Assembly: GCF_030770395.1 (NCBI RefSeq) | Contig: NZ_CP132480.1 | Location: 1,976,713 to 2,040,712 of the forward strand | Direction: 5' to 3' | Source of the DNA: Telluria beijingensis | Lineage (GTDB): Bacteria > Pseudomonadota > Gammaproteobacteria > Burkholderiales > Burkholderiaceae_D | Length of the DNA: 64,000 nucleotides | In this document: one piece after another, positions 47,648-57,097 of the stretch | Layout of the letters: each line of letters begins with the position of its first letter | How positions within the stretch are numbered: the stretch's first letter is position 1 | Notes under the pieces: model-generated | Told to the model about the DNA's origin: nothing | The model's input: the letters and a program-made list of their open reading frames with translations, nothing else | The model's database searches: none | Program-made: the position numbers and the translations under genes

Positions 47648-47971
47648 TCAGTCGTCTTCCTTGATCTCGTCCGCTTTTTCCTGGATTTTTTCGCCGGCGC
47701 GTTCCACCGACTTGCCCACTTCCTCGGTCGCGCGGTCCAGGCCGCGGCTGGCTTCTTCGGTGGCGTCCTTGACCTTCTCATGGGCCTCGGCGACGGCATC
47801 GTCGACCCGGGCCAGTTCTTCCTGCACCGAATCGGTCACCTTGGCGCTGGCGTCGTCCAGCGCCTTGCCGAGGCGCTCCGCCGGGCCGGCGCCGTCCTCG
47901 TCGCGGCTGCAGCCGGCCAGCGCCACGAGCATCAGTGGCACCAGCAACGCCTTCACCATGCTTGCTTTCAT
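47648..47971 (-). CDS. Small helical lipoprotein
   Basis: 107 residues. Lipoprotein signal LVALAGC (Cys21), then an almost continuous amphipathic helix rich in Ala, Glu, Asp, Lys and Val (AERLGKALDDASAKVTDSVQ and onward) that should form a coiled coil or apolipoprotein-like helix. Similar small proteins are linked to envelope stress, but I do not recognise a named family. Monocistronic; TGA is followed directly by the converging kinase gene. Confidence 0.75.
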   Translation of the reverse strand: MKASMVKALLVPLMLVALAGCSRDEDGAGPAERLGKALDDASAKVTDSVQEELARVDDAVAEAHEKVKDATEEASRGLDRATEEVGKSVERAGEKIQEKADEIKEDD

Positions 47972-48045: not shown

Positions 48046-48657
48046 TCAGCCGCCGCGTTTCGGATCGGCCAGCGGATGGCTGCGCCGGCGCCGCTCTTCC
48101 CGCGTGCAGGCGGCTGCCGCGGCATTGAGCGCGTCCTGCACCTTGCGCAACTGCTGCTCGCTGGCGCGCGTCCTGCGCAGGGCGATCAGCTCGTCCTGCG
48201 CGTCCTTCGACTTGCATTCCTTCGCCAGCGCAATGGCCGATTCCATGCGGCGCTCGATGCGCGCCGCAGTCGGCTTGGTCAGCATCCAGGCCAGCCACAG
48301 GATGCCCAGCGCGATCAGCCACCAGCGCAGGCGGATCGGCTTGCGCGCCGGGGCGGCCGGCGGCGGTGGCGCGCTCGCACGGATCGGTGGCGGTGCGGGC
48401 GGCCGGGGTGGCGTCGGCGCCGGCCGCGGAGCGGGCGCCGCGACAGGCGCCGGCGGTGGAACCCGTACCGGTTCCGGCTCCGGCCGTTTCGCCAGGATAG
48501 CCGCCGGCGCCGGCGCCGGCGCCGTCACCTGAGAAACGACCGCCGGTGCAGCCGCCTGCTGCGCCGTGCCGCACCATGGACAAAAATCGACCCGGCGCGG
48601 AAACGCGCGTCCGCAGCCGATGTTCACGCAGCGGTGGGTGACAGTGGCGTGCTCCAT
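48046..48657 (-). CDS. Zinc-ribbon membrane protein with proline-rich linker (tubulin operon, gene 5)
   Basis: 203 residues. N-terminal zinc ribbon with Cys10, Cys15, Cys26 and Cys29 (FCPWCG). Residues about 46-107 are dominated by Pro and Ala with repeated PPP and PAP words. A transmembrane helix follows (about 109-127, LRWWLIALGILWLAWML), then a charged helical tail with two further Cys. The zinc ribbon is probably cytoplasmic and the tail periplasmic. The start at 48657 was preferred over ATG 48663 because GAGG lies six bases before it. It begins eight bases after the stop of the tubulin-like gene. No known family recognised. Confidence 0.8.
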   Translation of the reverse strand: MEHATVTHRCVNIGCGRAFPRRVDFCPWCGTAQQAAAPAVVSQVTAPAPAPAAILAKRPEPEPVRVPPPAPVAAPAPRPAPTPPRPPAPPPIRASAPPPPAAPARKPIRLRWWLIALGILWLAWMLTKPTAARIERRMESAIALAKECKSKDAQDELIALRRTRASEQQLRKVQDALNAAAAACTREERRRRSHPLADPKRGG

Positions 48658-48665
48658 GCCCATCC

Positions 48666-51600
48666 TCAGTCCGGATCCGGCACGCCGTCGTCGGGATCCG
48701 GAATCCCCTCGTCGCGCGTGCCGCCCAGCGCCGCGGCCAGCTCGGGCAATTCGCCCACCGTGCTCCACTTGCCGATCTTCGGATGCCAGCGCATGTCCCA
48801 GGCGCGCGTCGCGTGGTCGATCTCGCCGCGCGCGGCTTGTTGCGCGACTTCGTCGACCGTGAACGGCCCGCGCTGGGCGCCGCCGACGAACAGCTTGAAG
48901 CGCGGCGTCGCGCTCGGCAGCGGCGGCGGCGCCACGGCTGCGGCACGCGGCGCCGCCGCCAGCGCCTGCTCCGCCGCCTCTTCGTCCGCCAGCAGAGCGG
49001 GCCGGATGATCCGCTTGTCCACTGCGCGCTCGACTTCCCAGCTGTAGGCATCCTGGCTGGAGCCGGGCACCACCTCGGTCCAGCGCTCGACCTGGCCCAG
49101 CAAGGCCTCGATCCTCCCCGGCTGCAGTCCCGCATCAAAGGCCTGCGCGCGCCGCATCCAGCTGTCGTACAGGCGGCGCGCGGTGATGTTCGGCAGCGAT
49201 GGCGATGGCAGCTGAGCGCCGGTCTCGTCGATCTCGAGCCGCGGCTCGTAGACGCGCAGCTGGTAGTAGCGCATCAGCGCCGCCAGCAAGGCCAGCCGCT
49301 GCGGGCCGAGCCCGGCCAGGCGCGCCTGCACTGCCGCGATCACGCCCTCGCGGTAATACGGCGGCAAGCCGTTGGAACGGACCGCGAACTCGTTGCCGAT
49401 CTGGAGCCACTCTCCGGAACCCGGTTCAACCTCGAACACATACTGGCCGCGCGGCTGGAACGCCGCTTCGCGGTCGCCCAGCTCGGCCTTGCGCCGGATG
49501 ACGCCCAGCGCGATCGCCTGCAGGAACCATTCGTAGTCGTCGGCCAGCCGTCCCAGTTCGTCCATCGACGGCGAGATCGGGTGGCGGAAACGCGTGGCGT
49601 CGAAATGCAGGTGGGTCGGGATCTTCGGGTTCTCGATCTGGTACGAGGCGCGCCAGGTTGGCAGGCCGCGCAGCACCGTCATCGGATAGCCGGACAGCTC
49701 GATATAGCACACCGCCCGGCCGCTCACGCCGGTGTTGACGATCGAGACCAGCTCGCCGTGGAAGTACCCGGTCGGCACGGCGGCGCGGATCTCGGCTTCC
49801 ATGCGGCGCCAGGCGACCGGATCGCCCACGCCGATGAAGCATTTGAACTGGTCGGCGTTCGGCGTGAACTCGGCCGAGAAGCGCGCGTTCACCCACGGCA
49901 TGGCGCTGCGGATCCACTCGGCGAAGATGCGCTGGCGTTCCTGGGGCGACAGGCCGGACAGGCGTTCGAGCAGCGGATCGGCCGGTTCCTGCCGCTCCAG
50001 GTCCTGGTTCGACAGCTGCAATTGCGCGCGCCGGAACAGTTTGAGCAACAGCTCGGCGCGCAGGCGCTCGTCGCCCAGTTGCGGGAACAGCCGCGCCGAG
50101 CCGCCAAATTCCAGCAGCACCTCCTCGCTCCAGATGCTGGTGTCGCCCGCCAGGCGCACCGGCTCCGGCGTCATCTCGGCGCCGAGCTTGATGGTAGTCG
50201 CATGTTCCTGGCGCGCGTCGGAACGCAGCTGTTTGATGCGCTGGTCGACGGCGCCCAGCATTGCCTGCACGGCGCGCCGGCCTTCCTGGAATTCGCCGGC
50301 GATGCCGCTCCACTGGGCCTGCCCCTGCTCGTCGGTCGATTGCGGATCGCCCAGCCAGGCGGACATCCCGCGCATCACCTCGATCGCCTGCCCGGCCGCC
50401 ACCGCCAGCAGATGGAAGCGCAGGTAGTCGGCCAGGTCGCGCCTCAGGTGGCCCATGACTTCGCGCGCCTGCGGCTCCTTGCCGAACAGGCGGCCGGCCG
50501 CCTGGCCCAGGTTGTTCAGCGACTCCTCGACCTGGCGCGTGCGCAGCGCGTCGCGGATGTCGCGGTAGCGGCGGCCATTGCGCTCGAGGTTGGCCAGGTC
50601 GCGCTGCAGCAGGCGCGCCTTGACCTGCTCCAGCAGCGACAGCACGAATTCCAGCCCGCCCTGGCGGCGGTCGTCGAGCAGGGCGTACAGGCGCTCGCGC
50701 ACCCTGCCTTTCAGGCGGTTTGACAGCTCGCCGGTATGGCGCTTGATGCGGTCCTCGCTGGTCTCGGCGGTGGCGCCGGCCTCGCGGATCGCGTCGCGTT
50801 CCAGTTGCGGCAGCAGTTCCGACACCTTTTCGCGCCACAGCTTGACGTCGTAGGAGGCCATGATGCGGTCGATCTCGAGCTGCACGCGGCTCTCGACCCG
50901 CTCGAGCAGCGAGCGGCCGTCGCGGTCGAGCAGCAGCGCATTCGTCAACGCATATTCGGTGAACGGCGTCACGTCCACCGAACCCTTGCGCAGGTCGGGG
51001 AATTCGTCGAAGGGACGCTCGGTCATCTCCATCTGGTCGCGCATGAAGGCGTCGCGCTCGGCGTCGCCCGCACGCCTCGCCGCCACGCCGTCGCTGCCCG
51101 CCAGGCCAAAGAATGCCTTCACCATCAGCGCCGCCAGTTCATAGGCGCGAATGTCGTCATGCAGGCTTTGCTGGGTGTCGAGCACCGACTGGCCAAAGCT
51201 CGAATACACCTTGGAGTACGACAGCCGCATGTCGCCGAAGCGCGCCTCGGGCACGCGCGGGTTGTACGGGCCGAGCTTGTGCTGCTGCTGGTTGACCGCC
51301 ACCGAGCGCTTGCGGTTGGCAAAGTCGGCCGAGGCGAAGTCTTCGAACAGGGTGTCGGCCACCATCTGGTAGACATCCTTGACGTCGAGCGTGGCCTTGT
51401 TGGCGAGATTCGCGGTGTCGACGAAATAGATGTCGTCGAACGGCGCGCCGCGCCCGGCGATGCTGTCCGGGTCCATCCACGCCACATTGGCATTCATGTC
51501 GCGCATCGCCGTCTCGAGTTCCATCAGGGTGGCGTAGGCATTGGCCTCGGTGCGCTCCTTGTTGGCCTTGGCGAAGCCAGATGGCATCAGCAGCACCAGG

Positions 51601-52310
51601 TCGACCTGGCTGTCGGACACTTCCTGGCGCGCGATCGCCTTCGACAGCCAGCCCAGGTCGAGCACGCTGCCGGCGCCGGTGCCGCCGGCGGCCGACGCAA
51701 TGACCACGATCCGGAACTTGGAGGTGTCGACCTGCAGCCCCAGGCGCTGGTAATTCTCCTTGCGCTCGATGCCGGCATTGCTGCTCAGGTAGTTGAGCGC
51801 GCCCTTGATGCGGCCACGCAGCTTCGGATATTTGTCGAACAGGTAGAGCCGCGCCAGCGCGCGAATCTGGCCCGCGCCTTTCGACGGGTCGATGCCGAGC
51901 GAACGCAGTTTTTTTGGCCGCAGCGGCATCCAGCTCTCGATCAGCGGAAAGCGCGCCAGGCTGTCGTCCGACTCGTGGTATTGCGGCAGGTCGAGCGGTT
52001 CGACCAGGCGCTCTTCGTCGCTCAGCCGCACCAGCTCGTACCAGGGATCGGTGCGCTGCGACTTGCCTTCGTCGATGACGGCATTGTTATCGAGGTCGAA
52101 GTGCAGGAAGCGCGCCACCGGGAAGTCGGCGATCGATTCGACCCGGGTCGGATGGCGCCGGTTCCAGACTGCGGACAGGATGCGGCGCCGGATGCGCATC
52201 ATGACTTCCATGCCGGTGCCGCCGGCGCCGATGAACAGCGTCGGCCGCAGGTCGACCTTGAGTTCGGCCGGGCGGGCGTCGATGCTCGATGGATTCGGGA
52301 ATTCTGCCAT
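48666..52310 (-). CDS. Tubulin/FtsZ-like protein with C-terminal GYF-like domain (operon gene 4)
   Basis: 1214 residues. An N-terminal Rossmann-type loop FIGAGGTGMEVM (26-37) and the tubulin signature ASAAGGTGAGSVLDLG (205-220), with VVIASA and VLLMPSGF strands, mark the large Tubulin-like family rather than FtsZ itself, which has about 380 residues. The middle ~700 residues are mostly helical and of unknown fold. Residues 1138-1192 form a GYF_2-like domain (KLFVGGAQRGPFTVDEVAQQ, GKWSTV), followed by an acidic tail with repeated PDPD. Predicted to bind GTP and perhaps polymerise. No transmembrane helix; membrane contact presumably comes through the operon partners. Confidence 0.88.
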   Translation of the reverse strand: MAEFPNPSSIDARPAELKVDLRPTLFIGAGGTGMEVMMRIRRRILSAVWNRRHPTRVESIADFPVARFLHFDLDNNAVIDEGKSQRTDPWYELVRLSDEERLVEPLDLPQYHESDDSLARFPLIESWMPLRPKKLRSLGIDPSKGAGQIRALARLYLFDKYPKLRGRIKGALNYLSSNAGIERKENYQRLGLQVDTSKFRIVVIASAAGGTGAGSVLDLGWLSKAIARQEVSDSQVDLVLLMPSGFAKANKERTEANAYATLMELETAMRDMNANVAWMDPDSIAGRGAPFDDIYFVDTANLANKATLDVKDVYQMVADTLFEDFASADFANRKRSVAVNQQQHKLGPYNPRVPEARFGDMRLSYSKVYSSFGQSVLDTQQSLHDDIRAYELAALMVKAFFGLAGSDGVAARRAGDAERDAFMRDQMEMTERPFDEFPDLRKGSVDVTPFTEYALTNALLLDRDGRSLLERVESRVQLEIDRIMASYDVKLWREKVSELLPQLERDAIREAGATAETSEDRIKRHTGELSNRLKGRVRERLYALLDDRRQGGLEFVLSLLEQVKARLLQRDLANLERNGRRYRDIRDALRTRQVEESLNNLGQAAGRLFGKEPQAREVMGHLRRDLADYLRFHLLAVAAGQAIEVMRGMSAWLGDPQSTDEQGQAQWSGIAGEFQEGRRAVQAMLGAVDQRIKQLRSDARQEHATTIKLGAEMTPEPVRLAGDTSIWSEEVLLEFGGSARLFPQLGDERLRAELLLKLFRRAQLQLSNQDLERQEPADPLLERLSGLSPQERQRIFAEWIRSAMPWVNARFSAEFTPNADQFKCFIGVGDPVAWRRMEAEIRAAVPTGYFHGELVSIVNTGVSGRAVCYIELSGYPMTVLRGLPTWRASYQIENPKIPTHLHFDATRFRHPISPSMDELGRLADDYEWFLQAIALGVIRRKAELGDREAAFQPRGQYVFEVEPGSGEWLQIGNEFAVRSNGLPPYYREGVIAAVQARLAGLGPQRLALLAALMRYYQLRVYEPRLEIDETGAQLPSPSLPNITARRLYDSWMRRAQAFDAGLQPGRIEALLGQVERWTEVVPGSSQDAYSWEVERAVDKRIIRPALLADEEAAEQALAAAPRAAAVAPPPLPSATPRFKLFVGGAQRGPFTVDEVAQQAARGEIDHATRAWDMRWHPKIGKWSTVGELPELAAALGGTRDEGIPDPDDGVPDPD

Positions 52311-52328
52311 GGTGTGAAGACTCCCTTC

Positions 52329-52799
52329 TTAACGGCGGCCGATGAACAGCGAGGCGACCAGCGCCACCACTCCCACCACCACCAGGGGGCCGGTGACGGC
52401 GAAGGTCAGGAAGCGGCTGGCGTTGATGATGGCCAGCACCGCCGCCGCCGACAAAAAGCCGAGGCCGACGAACAGCAGCCAGCCCGCATTGCCGGCCGAG
52501 GAAGGCGCCACGCGCTTGCGCACCAGGTGGTGCACATACGCGCCGCGCGCGAAGAAGTAGACGCTGATCAGGATCAGGAACACGATGCCTCCGATCGCCA
52601 GGTCGCGGTCCGAGGTGTCGGCCACCGGCAGCGTGTGCGGGTCGACCGGCATCACCTCGACCGGGCGAGTGGCGGTATCCGGCAAGGTCTGCGGCAAGGT
52701 CGACTGCACCGCGTCCGGGGGCGAGGCCGATTCTTCCGGCAGCTTGAAGCCGGGATCGGCGGTCGACGGAGCGTCGGTTGGTGGCTGGGTTGCCTGCAT
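52329..52799 (-). CDS. Small three-helix membrane protein (tubulin operon, gene 3)
   Basis: 156 residues. A Pro/Thr/Ser-rich N-terminal 65 residues, then TM1 (about 68-87, IGGIVFLILISVYFFARG), a basic loop (HHLVRKRVAPSS), TM2 (about 105-125) and TM3 (about 131-153). No recognised family. Start set at ATG 52799, preceded by AGGAAAGGAAG; an ATG at 52820 overlapping the previous stop as ATGA is also possible. It lies 18 bases before the tubulin-like gene. Confidence 0.75.
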   Translation of the reverse strand: MQATQPPTDAPSTADPGFKLPEESASPPDAVQSTLPQTLPDTATRPVEVMPVDPHTLPVADTSDRDLAIGGIVFLILISVYFFARGAYVHHLVRKRVAPSSAGNAGWLLFVGLGFLSAAAVLAIINASRFLTFAVTGPLVVVGVVALVASLFIGRR

Positions 52800-52816
52800 G
52801 GTTTCTTCCTTTCCTG

Positions 52817-54322
52817 TCATGGGCGGCCGAGCCGCACTTGCGCGCCTTCGCGCACATCGAGCAAGCGATGGCCGAACAGCGTTGTTTTCAATTGCGCGAC
52901 CTGTTCGCCGTGGCGGTCATACACCGGCTGGACGGTGCCGGGACGACCGCGCAAGGTGCGCGCTTCTTCGTCCACCAGTACCCGAGCCGTGCGCGGCCGG
53001 GCCCAGGCCCAGGCCGCGGCGGCCAGCGCCGCCAGCAGCGCCAGCAAGCCCCCCACCAGTGCCAGCAGCGGGCCCATGCCGTAATGGACGCGCACCTGGA
53101 CCGGCAGCACCGCCGTCGAAGCCTGCACCCGCGCCGGCGGAATGAAGATGTCCGGCAGCGGATCGCCCGGGAACAGCGCCGCCATGCGCTGGCGGAAGGC
53201 TTGCGAGAGTTCCAGCTTCTGGTCGGCCAGGTGCAGCTCGATCCGGCCCGGCAGCACATAGGCCGAACCGGCCGACTTGAGCGCGGCCAGCGACCACTGG
53301 TCGGGGATCTGCGCCACCGGCAAGGCCATGCTGGAGCCCAGCGGCGCCGGCTTGCCCGGGGCGAGGTCGCGCACCTGCGCCGCATCGAGCCTGATTGCCC
53401 GGCTTTCTCCCCCCAGGGTCGACCGCGCGCTCAGGGTGGCTGAGGCGATCGTGTACGGGTACATCGTGTTCTCGAGATGCCACTCGATGCGCGCCGATGG
53501 CTGGCGCGCATCGGGCGCCACGTCGGCGCGCAGCACGCCATCGGCCTGGCTGGCGAACGACACGCCGGGCGCGTCGACGACGCGGCGCGGCGCCAGCCGC
53601 ACGGTGTCGCGGTCCAGCGGCTTCAGTCGCGCCGGCGGTTCGGTGATCACCTGGGCGATGCGGCCAGTAGCCACCAAGGTATCGAGCGCCGCGGCGCCTT
53701 CCGCTCCGACCGCGAAGGCATACACCATCAGCCCGTTCGCGTCGTAGTGCTTTCCCTGCACCGGCATGCGCAGCGGGAAGGCAAGCGCCCTGGCGACCGT
53801 ATCGCCGCCGTGGATCAACGCATAGAATTCGCGGTTGCGCGTGGCCGTCGCCTGGTCGTTGTTCGGGCTGTTGCGGTTATTGGTCACCAGCCAGACGATG
53901 CCCGGCTTGCCTTGCAAGACCAGCCCCGTCGCGGCGCGCAGCGCTTCGCCCAGGTCGGTATCGGCCAGCGCCGCGCCACCCGGCTTGCGTGCGGTATCGA
54001 GACCGGCGATGGCCTGCGCCACGCGGGCGCGTACCGGTTCCTCGCCGGCCTTGAACGACGCCAGTGCGCGCGGCGATGGCGCGCCGGGCAGCGACTGGTT
54101 GAAACTCGCCAGCACCAATGCTTCGCCCGGCCGCACGACGGTTCCGGCCAACGCCGCCACCAGCGGCTTGAACGGCGACTTCGGGTCGCTATAGAACGGT
54201 TCCATCCAGCCCGAGTTCTGCACCAGGAAGACATGCGGCAGCGCCTGCGCGCAGAACGACACGCCGGCCAGCACGGCCGCTGCCAGTGAATGCGCGATCG
54301 TCCTCATCAAGGTCGTTATCAC
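52817..54322 (-). CDS. Membrane-anchored vWA-like protein (tubulin operon, gene 2)
   Basis: 501 residues. Signal peptide to about CAQA (27), then a domain of vWA shape: first strand VFLVQNSGWM (31-40), where the metal motif DxSGS reads QNSGW, VLASFNQSL, and a later strand WLVTNNRNSPN. A beta-rich region follows. One transmembrane helix (about 416-440, GPLLALVGGLLALLAALAAAAW) leads to a ~60-residue cytoplasmic tail. The bulk is therefore periplasmic. Divalent metal binding is doubtful. The GTG start overlaps the previous stop (GTGA) and has GGATGAG upstream. Assignment to vWA is by pattern only. Confidence 0.75.
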   Translation of the reverse strand: MITTLMRTIAHSLAAAVLAGVSFCAQALPHVFLVQNSGWMEPFYSDPKSPFKPLVAALAGTVVRPGEALVLASFNQSLPGAPSPRALASFKAGEEPVRARVAQAIAGLDTARKPGGAALADTDLGEALRAATGLVLQGKPGIVWLVTNNRNSPNNDQATATRNREFYALIHGGDTVARALAFPLRMPVQGKHYDANGLMVYAFAVGAEGAAALDTLVATGRIAQVITEPPARLKPLDRDTVRLAPRRVVDAPGVSFASQADGVLRADVAPDARQPSARIEWHLENTMYPYTIASATLSARSTLGGESRAIRLDAAQVRDLAPGKPAPLGSSMALPVAQIPDQWSLAALKSAGSAYVLPGRIELHLADQKLELSQAFRQRMAALFPGDPLPDIFIPPARVQASTAVLPVQVRVHYGMGPLLALVGGLLALLAALAAAAWAWARPRTARVLVDEEARTLRGRPGTVQPVYDRHGEQVAQLKTTLFGHRLLDVREGAQVRLGRP

Positions 54323-55809
54323 AGCGACTCATCCAGGCGCCAGCCGCGCATCTGGTTCCAGTCCGGGTGGTGCAGCCACAGGCAACCGCCCGCCACGATC
54401 GGCACGCATTCGAGCGGCCGCGCCAGGCGCGCGATCTCGTCAAGGATCACGTTGCGGCGGCCGATCCACTCCACCGTGGTGCGCGCGATGGCACGATCGC
54501 CCAAGGCTTCCTCCGCCCGGAAGTTAACCTTGTGGAAGCGCAGCACCAGCCCGCTCGGCTGGCTGCGGTTATTGTTAAAACTGCGCAGCAGCGGCAGCAC
54601 CAGGGTGTCGTCGTGGTGCGGGTCTTCGACGTGCTCGTTCGACCACGGATCGTCCAGCACCGGATGCCCGCGCCGGAACAGGAAGTTGGCGAAGCCCAGG
54701 CGCGCGCCGTCGATCGCCATCCGCGCCGGCAGGTGGTCGATGCCGGCGCCCAGTTCGAGATAGGAATAGCCGTGGCCATCGTGCCCGATCTGCCACAGGC
54801 GGCCGTCGCGGCTCTGCGTCGGCCCGCCGAAATCCAGGCGCGGCTGCCAGTGCAGGGGCCAGGGCGTGAATAGCGGCGCCTCGCCCGGCCGCCATGCGAG
54901 CTGCCCTTGCGCGTGCAGCCAGATCAGGCGGCCGTCGTAGCCGAGGGGCCGGCTCCAGCCAGCCGATGGCGCATCAGGACATGCATATTCCTGCACCTCA
55001 TGCAGGTCGAGGCGCAGGCTCCACAGGCGCACGCCATCGGCGCCGCCAGCCAGGCAGGCCAGGTGGCGCCGCATGATGCCCGGCGCCGCCACGATGGGCG
55101 CGGCCAATACGGTCTCGGTGCGATAGGTCTCGCTGACCGGATCGATCCACAGCCGCTGCAGGCCATCGAGACCCGGCACCACGCCAGCCTCACCACGTCG
55201 AGGATCGAGCGCCGGAATCCAGGCGTGGCTGGACGCGGTGAACACCAGGCTGGCGGCGCCCGCCTCGGGCGTGAGCACATGCCAGCTGGCGGCCAGCGGA
55301 TCCCAATACTGCAGCACGCCGCGCGTGTGCGCCAGCGCCAGCAGGCGTTCGCCGGGAAAGCCGAAACCGGCGGCGGCGAATACCGAGCAGGCATTGGGCG
55401 GCGCCGGCATCGCCAGGTCGCAGCGGCCGGGCGTTGGCGCCGCCGGCCGTTCTTCGAGGCTGTCGCCGAGCGGTAGCGACGTGACCGGCAAGCCGTGCGG
55501 CACGTGGCGCGGCAGGGCCTCGTCGCCGCCCGGGCCCCACCATCCGCGTGCCCGCGCCGGCGCGCCGGATAGCCGCAGCAGCGGGCGCCCGCAGCGCGGG
55601 CAATAGGCGAAACCTTCGGGATAGATTGGCGCGCAGCGGCAATCGAGGGGGAGCGAGGCGCCGAGCACGTGGGCGACGTCGGGCAGGCGCGCACGCGCCC
55701 GGCCCTGCCAGTCGACTGGCCCCAGGCCCTCGCTGGCGAGCAGGGAAAACTCGCCATTTTCTTCGCTTTCCTGCCAGATGCTGGCAGGGGTTTCCCATCG
55801 ATACGCCAT
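54319..55809 (-). CDS. Zinc-ribbon plus beta-propeller-like protein (tubulin operon, gene 1)
   Basis: 496 residues, no signal peptide or membrane helix. A four-Cys site (Cys57, Cys59, Cys70, Cys73; CRC...CPRC) near the N-terminus is followed by about 350 residues of repeated beta hairpins with Trp/Asp corners: RGVLQYWDPLAASW, LQRLWIDPVSETY, DGVRLWSLRLDL, RLIWLHAQGQLAW, RLWQIGHDGHGYSYLE. This resembles a WD/PQQ-type propeller without a clear family match. It may be a cytosolic scaffold or sensor. First gene of the operon; GAAAGG precedes ATG 55809, and two upstream in-frame ATGs lack ribosome sites. Confidence 0.72.
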   Translation of the reverse strand: MAYRWETPASIWQESEENGEFSLLASEGLGPVDWQGRARARLPDVAHVLGASLPLDCRCAPIYPEGFAYCPRCGRPLLRLSGAPARARGWWGPGGDEALPRHVPHGLPVTSLPLGDSLEERPAAPTPGRCDLAMPAPPNACSVFAAAGFGFPGERLLALAHTRGVLQYWDPLAASWHVLTPEAGAASLVFTASSHAWIPALDPRRGEAGVVPGLDGLQRLWIDPVSETYRTETVLAAPIVAAPGIMRRHLACLAGGADGVRLWSLRLDLHEVQEYACPDAPSAGWSRPLGYDGRLIWLHAQGQLAWRPGEAPLFTPWPLHWQPRLDFGGPTQSRDGRLWQIGHDGHGYSYLELGAGIDHLPARMAIDGARLGFANFLFRRGHPVLDDPWSNEHVEDPHHDDTLVLPLLRSFNNNRSQPSGLVLRFHKVNFRAEEALGDRAIARTTVEWIGRRNVILDEIARLARPLECVPIVAGGCLWLHHPDWNQMRGWRLDESL

Positions 55810-56020: not shown

Positions 56021-57097
56021 ATGGCCGCCTGCCCGTCCACCCTTCCCGATTCCGCCATGACCGCTGCCGATTCCCACGACGACCTCCCTGCGCATGCCAT
56101 CGATGCCGCCACCAGGCATCTGCATGACGTGCTGACGATCGCGCTCGAACACGGGCCCGGGCAGAAGGCGCTGGTGGTCTACGACACCCGCACCGGCCTG
56201 TCGCGCGCGCTGCTGGCGGCCTATCGCCACAACCTGCCGGATGCGCAATTCATCGACTTCGACGCCGTGGCGCCGCAAGCGGTGCTGGCGGCCTTCGGCA
56301 CCATGAACGCGGGTGAGCTGGTGGTGCTGCTGCAGTCGTCGAATTTCCGTCTCGACGGCTTTCGCATGCGGGTCGAGCTGTTCAAGCTGGATTTGAAAGT
56401 GATCGAGCACGTGCACCTGTCGCGCATGCCGGGCATCCAGGGCGAACACTATATCGACGCGCTGGCCTACGACCCGGCCTATTTCCGCGGCACCGGGCGC
56501 GCGCTCAAGGAACGCATCGACCGCGCGCCGCACGGCCGCGTGGTCGGCGGCGGCGAAACGCTCACCTTCGCTTCGCCGTTCGAGCCGGCCAAACTGAATA
56601 TCGGCGACTACAGCGACATGAAGAACGTCGGCGGCCAGTTCCCGATCGGCGAGGTGTTCACCGAAGCGCTCGACCTGGAGGCGGTGTATGGCCGGGTGCA
56701 GGTCCACGTGTTCGGCGACACCAGCTACCGCTCGAACCGCCCGGACGTGCCGGTGACGCTGCTGATCGAGCGCGGCCGCGTGGTGGCGACCGAGAACGCG
56801 ACCCCGGCCTTCCAGCAGGTGCTCGACAACATCACCGCCGACGAGGGCGAAGTCTGGGTGCGCGAACTGGGCTTCGGCCTGAACCGCGCATTCACGCGCG
56901 AACTGCGGGTGGACGATATCGGTACCTACGAGCGCATGTGCGGCGTTCACCTGTCGCTCGGCGCCAAGCACGGCGTGTATCCGAAGCCCGGCTTCAAGCG
57001 CAAGGATGCGCGCTATCACATCGACGTGTTCGCGGTGACCGAGGCGGTCTACCTGGGCGAGGAACAGGTGTTCGCGGACGGGCGCTGGCTGGCCTGA
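56021..57097 (+). CDS. M29-like metallo-aminopeptidase
   Basis: 358 residues. The order VGGQFPIGEVFTEALDLEAV, GRVVATENATP, VRELGFGLNRAF and CGVHLSLGAKHG resembles clan MQ (thermophilic aminopeptidase T / M29), whose Glu, His and Asp ligands lie in these blocks. Cytosolic with no signal. It would release N-terminal residues from peptides. The first ~25 residues are poorly conserved; ATG 56057 is an alternative start. GAGAG lies nine bases before ATG 56021. Divergent from the tubulin operon. Confidence 0.8.
   Translation: MAACPSTLPDSAMTAADSHDDLPAHAIDAATRHLHDVLTIALEHGPGQKALVVYDTRTGLSRALLAAYRHNLPDAQFIDFDAVAPQAVLAAFGTMNAGELVVLLQSSNFRLDGFRMRVELFKLDLKVIEHVHLSRMPGIQGEHYIDALAYDPAYFRGTGRALKERIDRAPHGRVVGGGETLTFASPFEPAKLNIGDYSDMKNVGGQFPIGEVFTEALDLEAVYGRVQVHVFGDTSYRSNRPDVPVTLLIERGRVVATENATPAFQQVLDNITADEGEVWVRELGFGLNRAFTRELRVDDIGTYERMCGVHLSLGAKHGVYPKPGFKRKDARYHIDVFAVTEAVYLGEEQVFADGRWLA

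Follow-up and report, generated by a model that had tools for sequence, protein, structure and literature searches.

Introduction

The FtsZl1-vWA-GTPase-OmpA system of Makarova and Koonin is the closest known system to the locus described here, an operon of five genes around a giant tubulin-like protein at positions 48046-55809 of a 64,000-nucleotide stretch of the Telluria beijingensis genome (contig NZ_CP132480.1, positions 1,976,713 to 2,040,712; the whole stretch is called the window below). FtsZl1 proteins were predicted in 2010 to act in membrane remodelling (PMC2875224; all sources given by accession are cited from the available parts of their text), and the family is described there as having an N-terminal FtsZ-like domain, a long coiled-coil middle and a mostly helical C-terminal domain. 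Polaromonas naphthalenivorans belonged to the set of Makarova and Koonin (PMC2875224). A referee's objection printed there is that an FtsZ-like protein in the cytoplasm would not team up with partners in the periplasm, and the authors for their part reported no confident identification of the T6-H7 elements or the tubulin C-terminal domain. The membrane-remodelling prediction has been repeated (PMC5898192), and in the available text of another study Tubulin_2 proteins were treated as divergent and left out of the main reconstructions (PMC9871819). The sole phenotype of a Tubulin_2 gene that we found is that of Synechocystis sll0445, whose interruption mutants are impaired in phototaxis and have altered photosystem fluorescence; the gene neighbourhood there is another one (PMC9880817).

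Other described systems share single parts with the operon. The GAP1-N2 systems (Kaur et al. 2020, PMC7159879) have in common with it a tubulin, a von Willebrand factor A (vWA) protein with transmembrane (TM) helices, zinc ribbons and a GYF domain; however, they are built around a GAP1/TRAFAC GTPase, whereas the five genes of the window give no GTPase match and no recognised effector, and the tubulin theme is restricted, according to the available text, to firmicutes and actinobacteria. Compared with CetZ, TubZ and the bacterial tubulins, the fourth protein of the operon has about three times the length; it carries a helical insertion in the core, an extra C-terminal region and a GYF domain. 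The last of these is also found in AgmX/GltJ of Myxococcus xanthus. In GltJ a zinc ribbon, a GYF domain, a proline-rich linker and a TM segment are reportedly united in one chain, whereas in the window the GYF domain is carried by the tubulin-like protein and the ribbon by a separate membrane protein.

In this report, we show that the operon is a variant of the FtsZl1-vWA system without separate GTPase and OmpA genes. It is a real, widespread and apparently undescribed form of a known but barely explored system; a literature search of titles and abstract starts, whose coverage misses most subscription papers, yielded no description of it that we recognised. Since Massilia and Janthinobacterium species carry the operon, and since Tubulin_2 is near-core in the genus (58/62 genomes), the prediction of 2010 becomes directly testable.

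Operon layout and relation to the FtsZl1-vWA system

Five minus-strand open reading frames (ORFs) occupy 48046-55809 as a tight operon. They encode, in order of transcription, gene 1 (54319..55809, 496 aa, fold unassigned), gene 2 (52817..54322, 501 aa, a membrane-anchored protein that the structure model points to as vWA-fold), gene 3 (52329..52820, 163 aa, with a proline-rich N-terminal segment followed by three TM helices by hydropathy), gene 4 (48666..52310, 1214 aa, a tubulin-like GTPase candidate of the FtsZl1/Tubulin_2 kind with a C-terminal GYF domain) and gene 5 (48046..48663, a zinc ribbon, a proline-rich linker, a TM helix and a short C-terminal region). Genes 1/2 and 2/3 overlap by 4 bases each, and genes 3 and 4 are 18 bases apart. 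The ORF list gives GTG 48768 as the start of gene 5, which would make it overlap gene 4 by 103 bases; ATG 48663, 2 bases past the stop of gene 4, is most likely the true start, because the zinc ribbon comes soon after it and the spacing between gene 4 and the start of gene 5 is similar in relatives. A scan for promoters and terminators gave nothing above chance expectation.

The original prediction, made from the sequence alone, had described a tight same-strand operon of these five genes, akin to the FtsZl1-vWA system and perhaps a distinct or derived version of it. The ORFs are as it described them and the order of genes 1-4 is kept in relatives. The kinship is borne out by the shared tubulin-like and vWA genes: in the FtsZl1-vWA system, as here, an FtsZ-like gene stands beside genes for a secreted or membrane-bound vWA protein and for membrane proteins in a predicted operon (PMC2875224). 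The idea of a distinct version stands in so far as this is a variant without separate GTPase or OmpA genes, and falls as regards a local oddity, since the operon is widespread. According to the available text of PMC2875224, a separate, diverged P-loop GTPase gene is frequent but not universal in the FtsZl1-vWA system and an OmpA-family gene is present in several genomes, whereas among the five proteins of the window there is no GTPase match in Pfam, no OmpA-family protein and no kinase. In that system the metal ion-dependent adhesion site (MIDAS) is also intact in the majority of vWA domains (PMC2875224), while the vWA protein of the window has lost it.

The giant tubulin-like protein

Gene 4 is a member of the FtsZ/tubulin superfamily as judged by its predicted fold and its T1 and T4 loops. 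It matches Tubulin_2 (PF13809) in Pfam with an expectation value (E) of 1.9e-48, and this is the one Tubulin_2 match in the 6.02-Mb single-contig genome of the host. The domain covers residues 25-393 (51132..52238, minus strand) and carries the loops T1 GAGGTGM, T3-like GAGQ and T4 AGGTGAG. Among 26 aligned gene 4 rows, the T4 loop AGGTG[SA]G is present in all, and the T1 loop GxGGTGM in 22; the deviants have A for the first G (L112, L178), GGSG (L159) or K for M (L113).

The AlphaFold2 model of residues 1-1190 (mean predicted local distance difference test, pLDDT, 82.4; predicted template-modelling score, pTM, 0.71) matches the tubulin fold from residue 21 to about 900, across a long helical insertion, so that the tubulin-like protein originally proposed, with its fold expected at residues 20-400, is indeed seen there. 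CetZ residues 1-345 align with the model range 21-896 (315 aligned), and tubulins reach about 914-916, with an identity of 15% across the aligned part; the residue-level limits of these alignments are not part of the tool's output. The mainly helical insertion spans residues ~454-810 by the secondary structure of the model (49881..50951, minus strand; limits approximate), and the tubulin alignments end at residues ~820-915 (49566..49853, minus strand), the putative end of the tubulin C-terminal domain. Since the model matches nearly the entire CetZ chain, the second tubulin domain appears to be included, which speaks to the C-terminal domain that could not be placed with confidence in 2010. 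The architecture of the FtsZl1 family is seen in the Tubulin_2 domain and the long helical middle; the C-terminal part of the model is a mixture of helix and strand.

The GYF-like tail of the original prediction corresponds to a GYF_2 domain (PF14237, E 1.1e-6) at residues 1142-1191 (48738..48887, minus strand). Its best match among solved structures, in a search with the gene 4 profile, is 7z3c_A (Adventurous gliding motility protein X, E 2.3e-7), and the C-terminus is GYF-like in 77/78 gene 4 orthologues, many of which have proline-rich stretches adjoining the domain. The extreme C-terminal tails (~48666-48740 in the window) fall into two clade-typical kinds, IPDP-type in 35/78 and PPP-type in 38/78, with 5 others; by analogy with the C-terminus of FtsZ, these are perhaps short docking motifs.

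A vWA-fold protein without the metal motif

Gene 2 consists of an N-terminal helix, read as a putative signal peptide, a vWA-fold region at residues 26-230 (53633..54247, minus strand), a beta-sandwich at about 240-414, a TM helix at 417-441 (53000..53074, minus strand; a helix of the structure model, with the hydropathy peak at 412) and a small C-terminal beta domain. The vWA domain is judged from its sequence to have lost the metal-binding MIDAS motif: QNSGWMEPF stands in place of DxSxS, and at this position the gene 2 relatives have QNSGW in 74/77 and QDSGW in 1, the pattern being absent from 2. The original prediction had made no mention of this loss. The fold is not apparent at the level of sequence. 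Pfam VWA models do not recognise gene 2 of the window, none of 39 gene 2 members matches them better than E 0.067 (E 0.067-0.093 in two or three), and no vWA chain came up when PDB sequences were searched with a profile; the relative at L055 gives a sub-threshold match at E 0.04. Re-ranking of the structure matches by VIA-align placed vWA chains at the top, together with some high-ranking entries that have no vWA in the title (9c4f_I, 9pd4_E). The model and this re-ranking support the vWA-like protein with a membrane anchor that had been proposed. Against a viral structure library there were 4 matches at E <= 0.001, all with a low TM-score.

Genes 1, 3 and 5

Gene 3 shows TM peaks at 73, 114 and 142, as expected for the three-TM protein of the original prediction, and three peaks recur in 64/69 orthologues. 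Gene 5 is likewise the anticipated zinc-ribbon membrane protein, with the ribbon after ATG 48663 and a TM segment, the peak of which passes the looser hydropathy threshold only. In Pfam it matches DUF7575 at E 0.00024, under the cut-off. Within 1.2 kb downstream of gene 4, a comparable zinc ribbon motif is present at 63 of the 65 loci with enough contig, a count that leaves out 13 further loci without contig room. The gene 5 linker has a median proline fraction of 0.24 (in 64/65 proteins with a TM segment called), as against 0.05 in gene 4.

Gene 1 is probably cytoplasmic, since neither a TM peak nor a signal peptide was seen in it. The zinc ribbon once assigned to it holds for part of the family: zinc-knuckle-like cysteines near residues 57-74 are variable across relatives, and the pair CxC/CxH and CPxCG is found in 15/36 aligned rows, chiefly of the clade of the window, and is lost in more than half; the Pfam match of gene 1 is weak (Zn_Ribbon_1, E 0.086, under cut-off). 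The beta-propeller that had also been suggested is not borne out, as the 36-row profile has no PDB sequence match below E 1.2, no significant self-repeat was detected, and one sub-threshold propeller match (E 0.045) occurs among the 36 members.

Distribution and conservation

A scan of genome contigs with the gene 4 alignment gave 259 related loci; the 80-locus counts refer to the best 80 of these. Genes 1-4 were all detected in order in 73/80, and the recurrence of this order across the compared loci excludes a chance arrangement; homologues of gene 4 thus do co-occur with the partner genes, as the original prediction required. The other 7 loci have two or three of these genes: four lie too close to the ends of short contigs (L123, L157, L173, L174), and L110, L111 and L112 show no match to gene 1 or gene 3 despite room. 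Nearly all of the 80 loci are from Pseudomonadota; represented are, among others, Oxalobacteraceae, Comamonadaceae, Burkholderiaceae, Zoogloeaceae, Pseudomonas, Acinetobacter, Chromatiaceae and Alphaproteobacteria, and one locus is from Humidesulfovibrio, with Massilia and Telluria as the nearest relatives of gene 4 by name.

The genus genomes, including that of the window, carry Tubulin_2 in 58/62 cases, and genes 1-4 were confirmed in order in 56 of these 58 (the window and 55 others). Of the remaining two loci, one is truncated by the contig, and the other, in G684, yielded genes 2 and 4 only, lying near each other. Six listed genomes of other genera in the family have no Tubulin_2; in the order sample it was found in 7/300 genomes, counting the host and three others of the genus, and in the phylum sample in 8/398, 7 of them above the cut-off. 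Gene 2 was detected in 5/300 order genomes (the host included), all with Tubulin_2, and two further order genomes have Tubulin_2 without gene 2. Of the genus genomes without gene 4, three also lack gene 2 and the fourth (84% complete) holds a gene 2 fragment only. On this distribution, the gene set behaves largely as a single unit.

A survey of 66 loci around Tubulin_2 matches showed genes 1-4 in the same order and on the same strand in 58, and genes 2-4 followed by the contig end in one (L068). The 7 loci without genes 1-3 are other Tubulin_2 types or a doubtful sub-threshold match, L051 (genome G471), where the match (E 3.9e-4) lies inside a 222-aa ORF with no partner genes and is probably false. 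Within the genus, a second Tubulin_2 type adjoins a caspase-domain gene and a DUF4384 gene (L052:7662-12861), and L054 resembles it by ORF layout. Another type (L009:1617-10851) is on the same strand as genes for a caspase-DUF4384 protein and a CHAT-domain protein. Five plasmid records match, one of which, from Azospirillum, covers at least 80% of the query. On the Azospirillum plasmid (L188) the tubulin-like gene stands among three caspase-family, three OmpA-family and two DUF4384 genes, and on a Thermus oshimai plasmid (L189) vWA and tubulin-like genes lie near a TROVE-domain gene and a brxL-annotated gene. No relative was found in phage records at the thresholds used, and none of 136 pattern stretches in viral contigs was a relative. 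PADLOC models matched 0/5 window proteins at E <= 1 and 0/26 gene 4 orthologues at E <= 0.01.

In a gene 4 tree, built by a quick method and with long branches flagged, the window falls in a mainly Oxalobacteraceae clade of 36 rows, 3 of them with a glycine-zipper lipoprotein, next to a wider clade of 34 rows, 25 of them with such a lipoprotein. Genome G716 holds both clade versions of the operon (L053 and L062), about 225 kb apart on one contig.

Proposed mechanism and alternative explanations

The anatomy of the operon is well supported except for gene 1; its mechanism and its function in the cell are what we infer from that anatomy. There is, in our estimate, an even chance that the locus encodes a trans-envelope complex, in which a GTP-dependent tubulin scaffold in the cytoplasm is anchored at the inner membrane and linked to a vWA sensor in the periplasm. 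The proteins of genes 4 and 1 are predicted to be in the cytoplasm and those of genes 3, 5 and 2 in the inner membrane, with gene 2 exposing its vWA and sandwich domains on the periplasmic side and its last domain on the cytoplasmic side. When bound to GTP, the gene 4 protein would assemble into a filament or some shorter oligomer at the inner membrane, on its cytoplasmic side, where gene 5 would hold the assembly and gene 3 would tether it as well. GYF domains bind proline-rich peptides, and since the gene 5 linker is proline-rich, the GYF domain may be what binds it. The vWA protein would sense or bind an envelope ligand or a partner lipoprotein, and its state would be passed across the membrane; in this way the assembly in the cytoplasm would organise or remodel the envelope at the sites that require it. 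The vWA protein may either control the gene 4 assembly or be controlled by it. A predicted membrane-crossing vWA protein, two more membrane proteins and a lipoprotein in many relatives speak to the objection raised by the referee in 2010.

In a further, rather doubtful extension of this proposal, the complex would be the bacterial counterpart, in architecture and not in descent, of an integrin-type linkage, with a periplasmic vWA receptor, a beta-sandwich stalk, a TM segment, a cytoplasmic domain, inner-membrane adaptors and a GTP-driven tubulin-type cytoskeleton with its own GYF docking module. The likeness to ANTXR2 and integrins is one of architecture only; no kinship in sequence is claimed, similarity is low and gene 2 has no metal motif. 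If true, such a linkage would answer the question of how a cytoplasmic FtsZ-like protein works with periplasmic and outer-membrane partners.

Several observations weigh against the trans-envelope complex. GTP binding, hydrolysis and polymerisation by gene 4, and any interactions of its product, are predictions from sequence. The region after the putative H7 varies among the 26 gene 4 rows and offers no assignable T7 acidic residue (D420, present in 24/26, is not assigned this role), and the helical insertion might obstruct a tubulin-type filament. In the plain Foldseek ranking for gene 2, the first places went to beta-sandwich and potassium-channel chains with low TM-score and not to vWA chains. 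Gene 1 is without an assigned fold or role, and L111 and L112 have no gene 5-like ribbon despite room. The contact between the GYF domain and the gene 5 linker is one possibility only, because some linkers are proline-poor despite the GYF domain (L144 has no proline in the 100 residues past the ribbon) and gene 4 orthologues have proline-rich stretches of their own.

Among the alternatives, a non-polymerising GTPase switch, in which gene 4, as part of a signalling complex at the membrane, would sense nucleotide through its tubulin fold without forming filaments, is the one that survives best, while still being unlikely. It would accommodate both the long insertion within the tubulin core and the T7 acidic residue that could not be assigned, and absence of filaments is one of three options considered by Makarova and Koonin (PMC2875224); however, the match to nearly the whole CetZ chain, second domain included, weighs against it, and the authors' reply in PMC2875224 states that filaments were formed by every superfamily member that had been characterised at the time.

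Less probable again, and distinctly improbable in our view, is a machine for surface motility or envelope transport comparable to the focal adhesion of gliding Myxococcus, in which the tubulin-like protein would take the place of a small GTPase. The best solved-structure match of the GYF domain is to the gliding protein, but it concerns one small domain; the GltJ model matches gene 5 weakly (E 0.032, 13.3 bits against a cut-off of 450, far under it), but only in its proline-rich and TM part; and the Synechocystis mutant in a Tubulin_2 gene has impaired phototaxis, but the neighbours of that gene differ, encoding FtsA-like and DivIC-like proteins (PMC9880817).

Defence loci are usually patchy in their distribution. 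A role of the operon in conflict or anti-phage defence, like that of the tubulin- and vWA-containing GAP1-N2 GTPase systems, is disfavoured and very improbable, because Tubulin_2 is present in 58/62 genus genomes and there is no relative in phage records or viral contigs and no PADLOC match, even though such systems include tubulin, vWA, zinc-ribbon GTPases and planctomycete GYF proteins (Kaur et al., PMC7159879) and genes of the caspase, CHAT or DUF4384 kinds accompany Tubulin_2 at other loci; the five proteins match no GTPase, peptidase or effector family, an incomplete test in that genes 1 and 3 are without an assigned family.

Lipoproteins and other neighbouring genes

A possible sixth gene (47648..47971, minus strand), 74 bases past gene 5, encodes a 107-aa protein that is lipoprotein-like as judged from its AGC lipobox. 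Homologues are found in the clade of the window, at 38/60 loci with a gene 4 match, always on the same strand, and within 1.3 kb of the end of the gene 4 match in 32 of the 38. This gene differs from the glycine-zipper-like lipoprotein of relatives, found near gene 5 in 29/79 tree rows with Pfam matches that are all under the cut-off, and may substitute for the latter, which is the lipoprotein of other clades.

A survey of neighbouring genes gave seven clusters common to at least 4 genus labels; it is a coarse survey, since the ORF picker may choose wrong frames in GC-rich DNA. Two clusters are adjacent and on the same strand, namely the downstream lipoprotein-like gene (21 loci, exclusively with Oxalobacteraceae labels) and a 185-aa gene that immediately precedes gene 1 (6 loci with 4 labels). 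Also frequent, at 29 loci, is an upstream gene in divergent orientation. In the window, a divergently transcribed gene at 56021-57097 (plus strand) encodes 358 aa; it is kept beside the operon at many loci of the clade of the window and was found at 30/80 loci.

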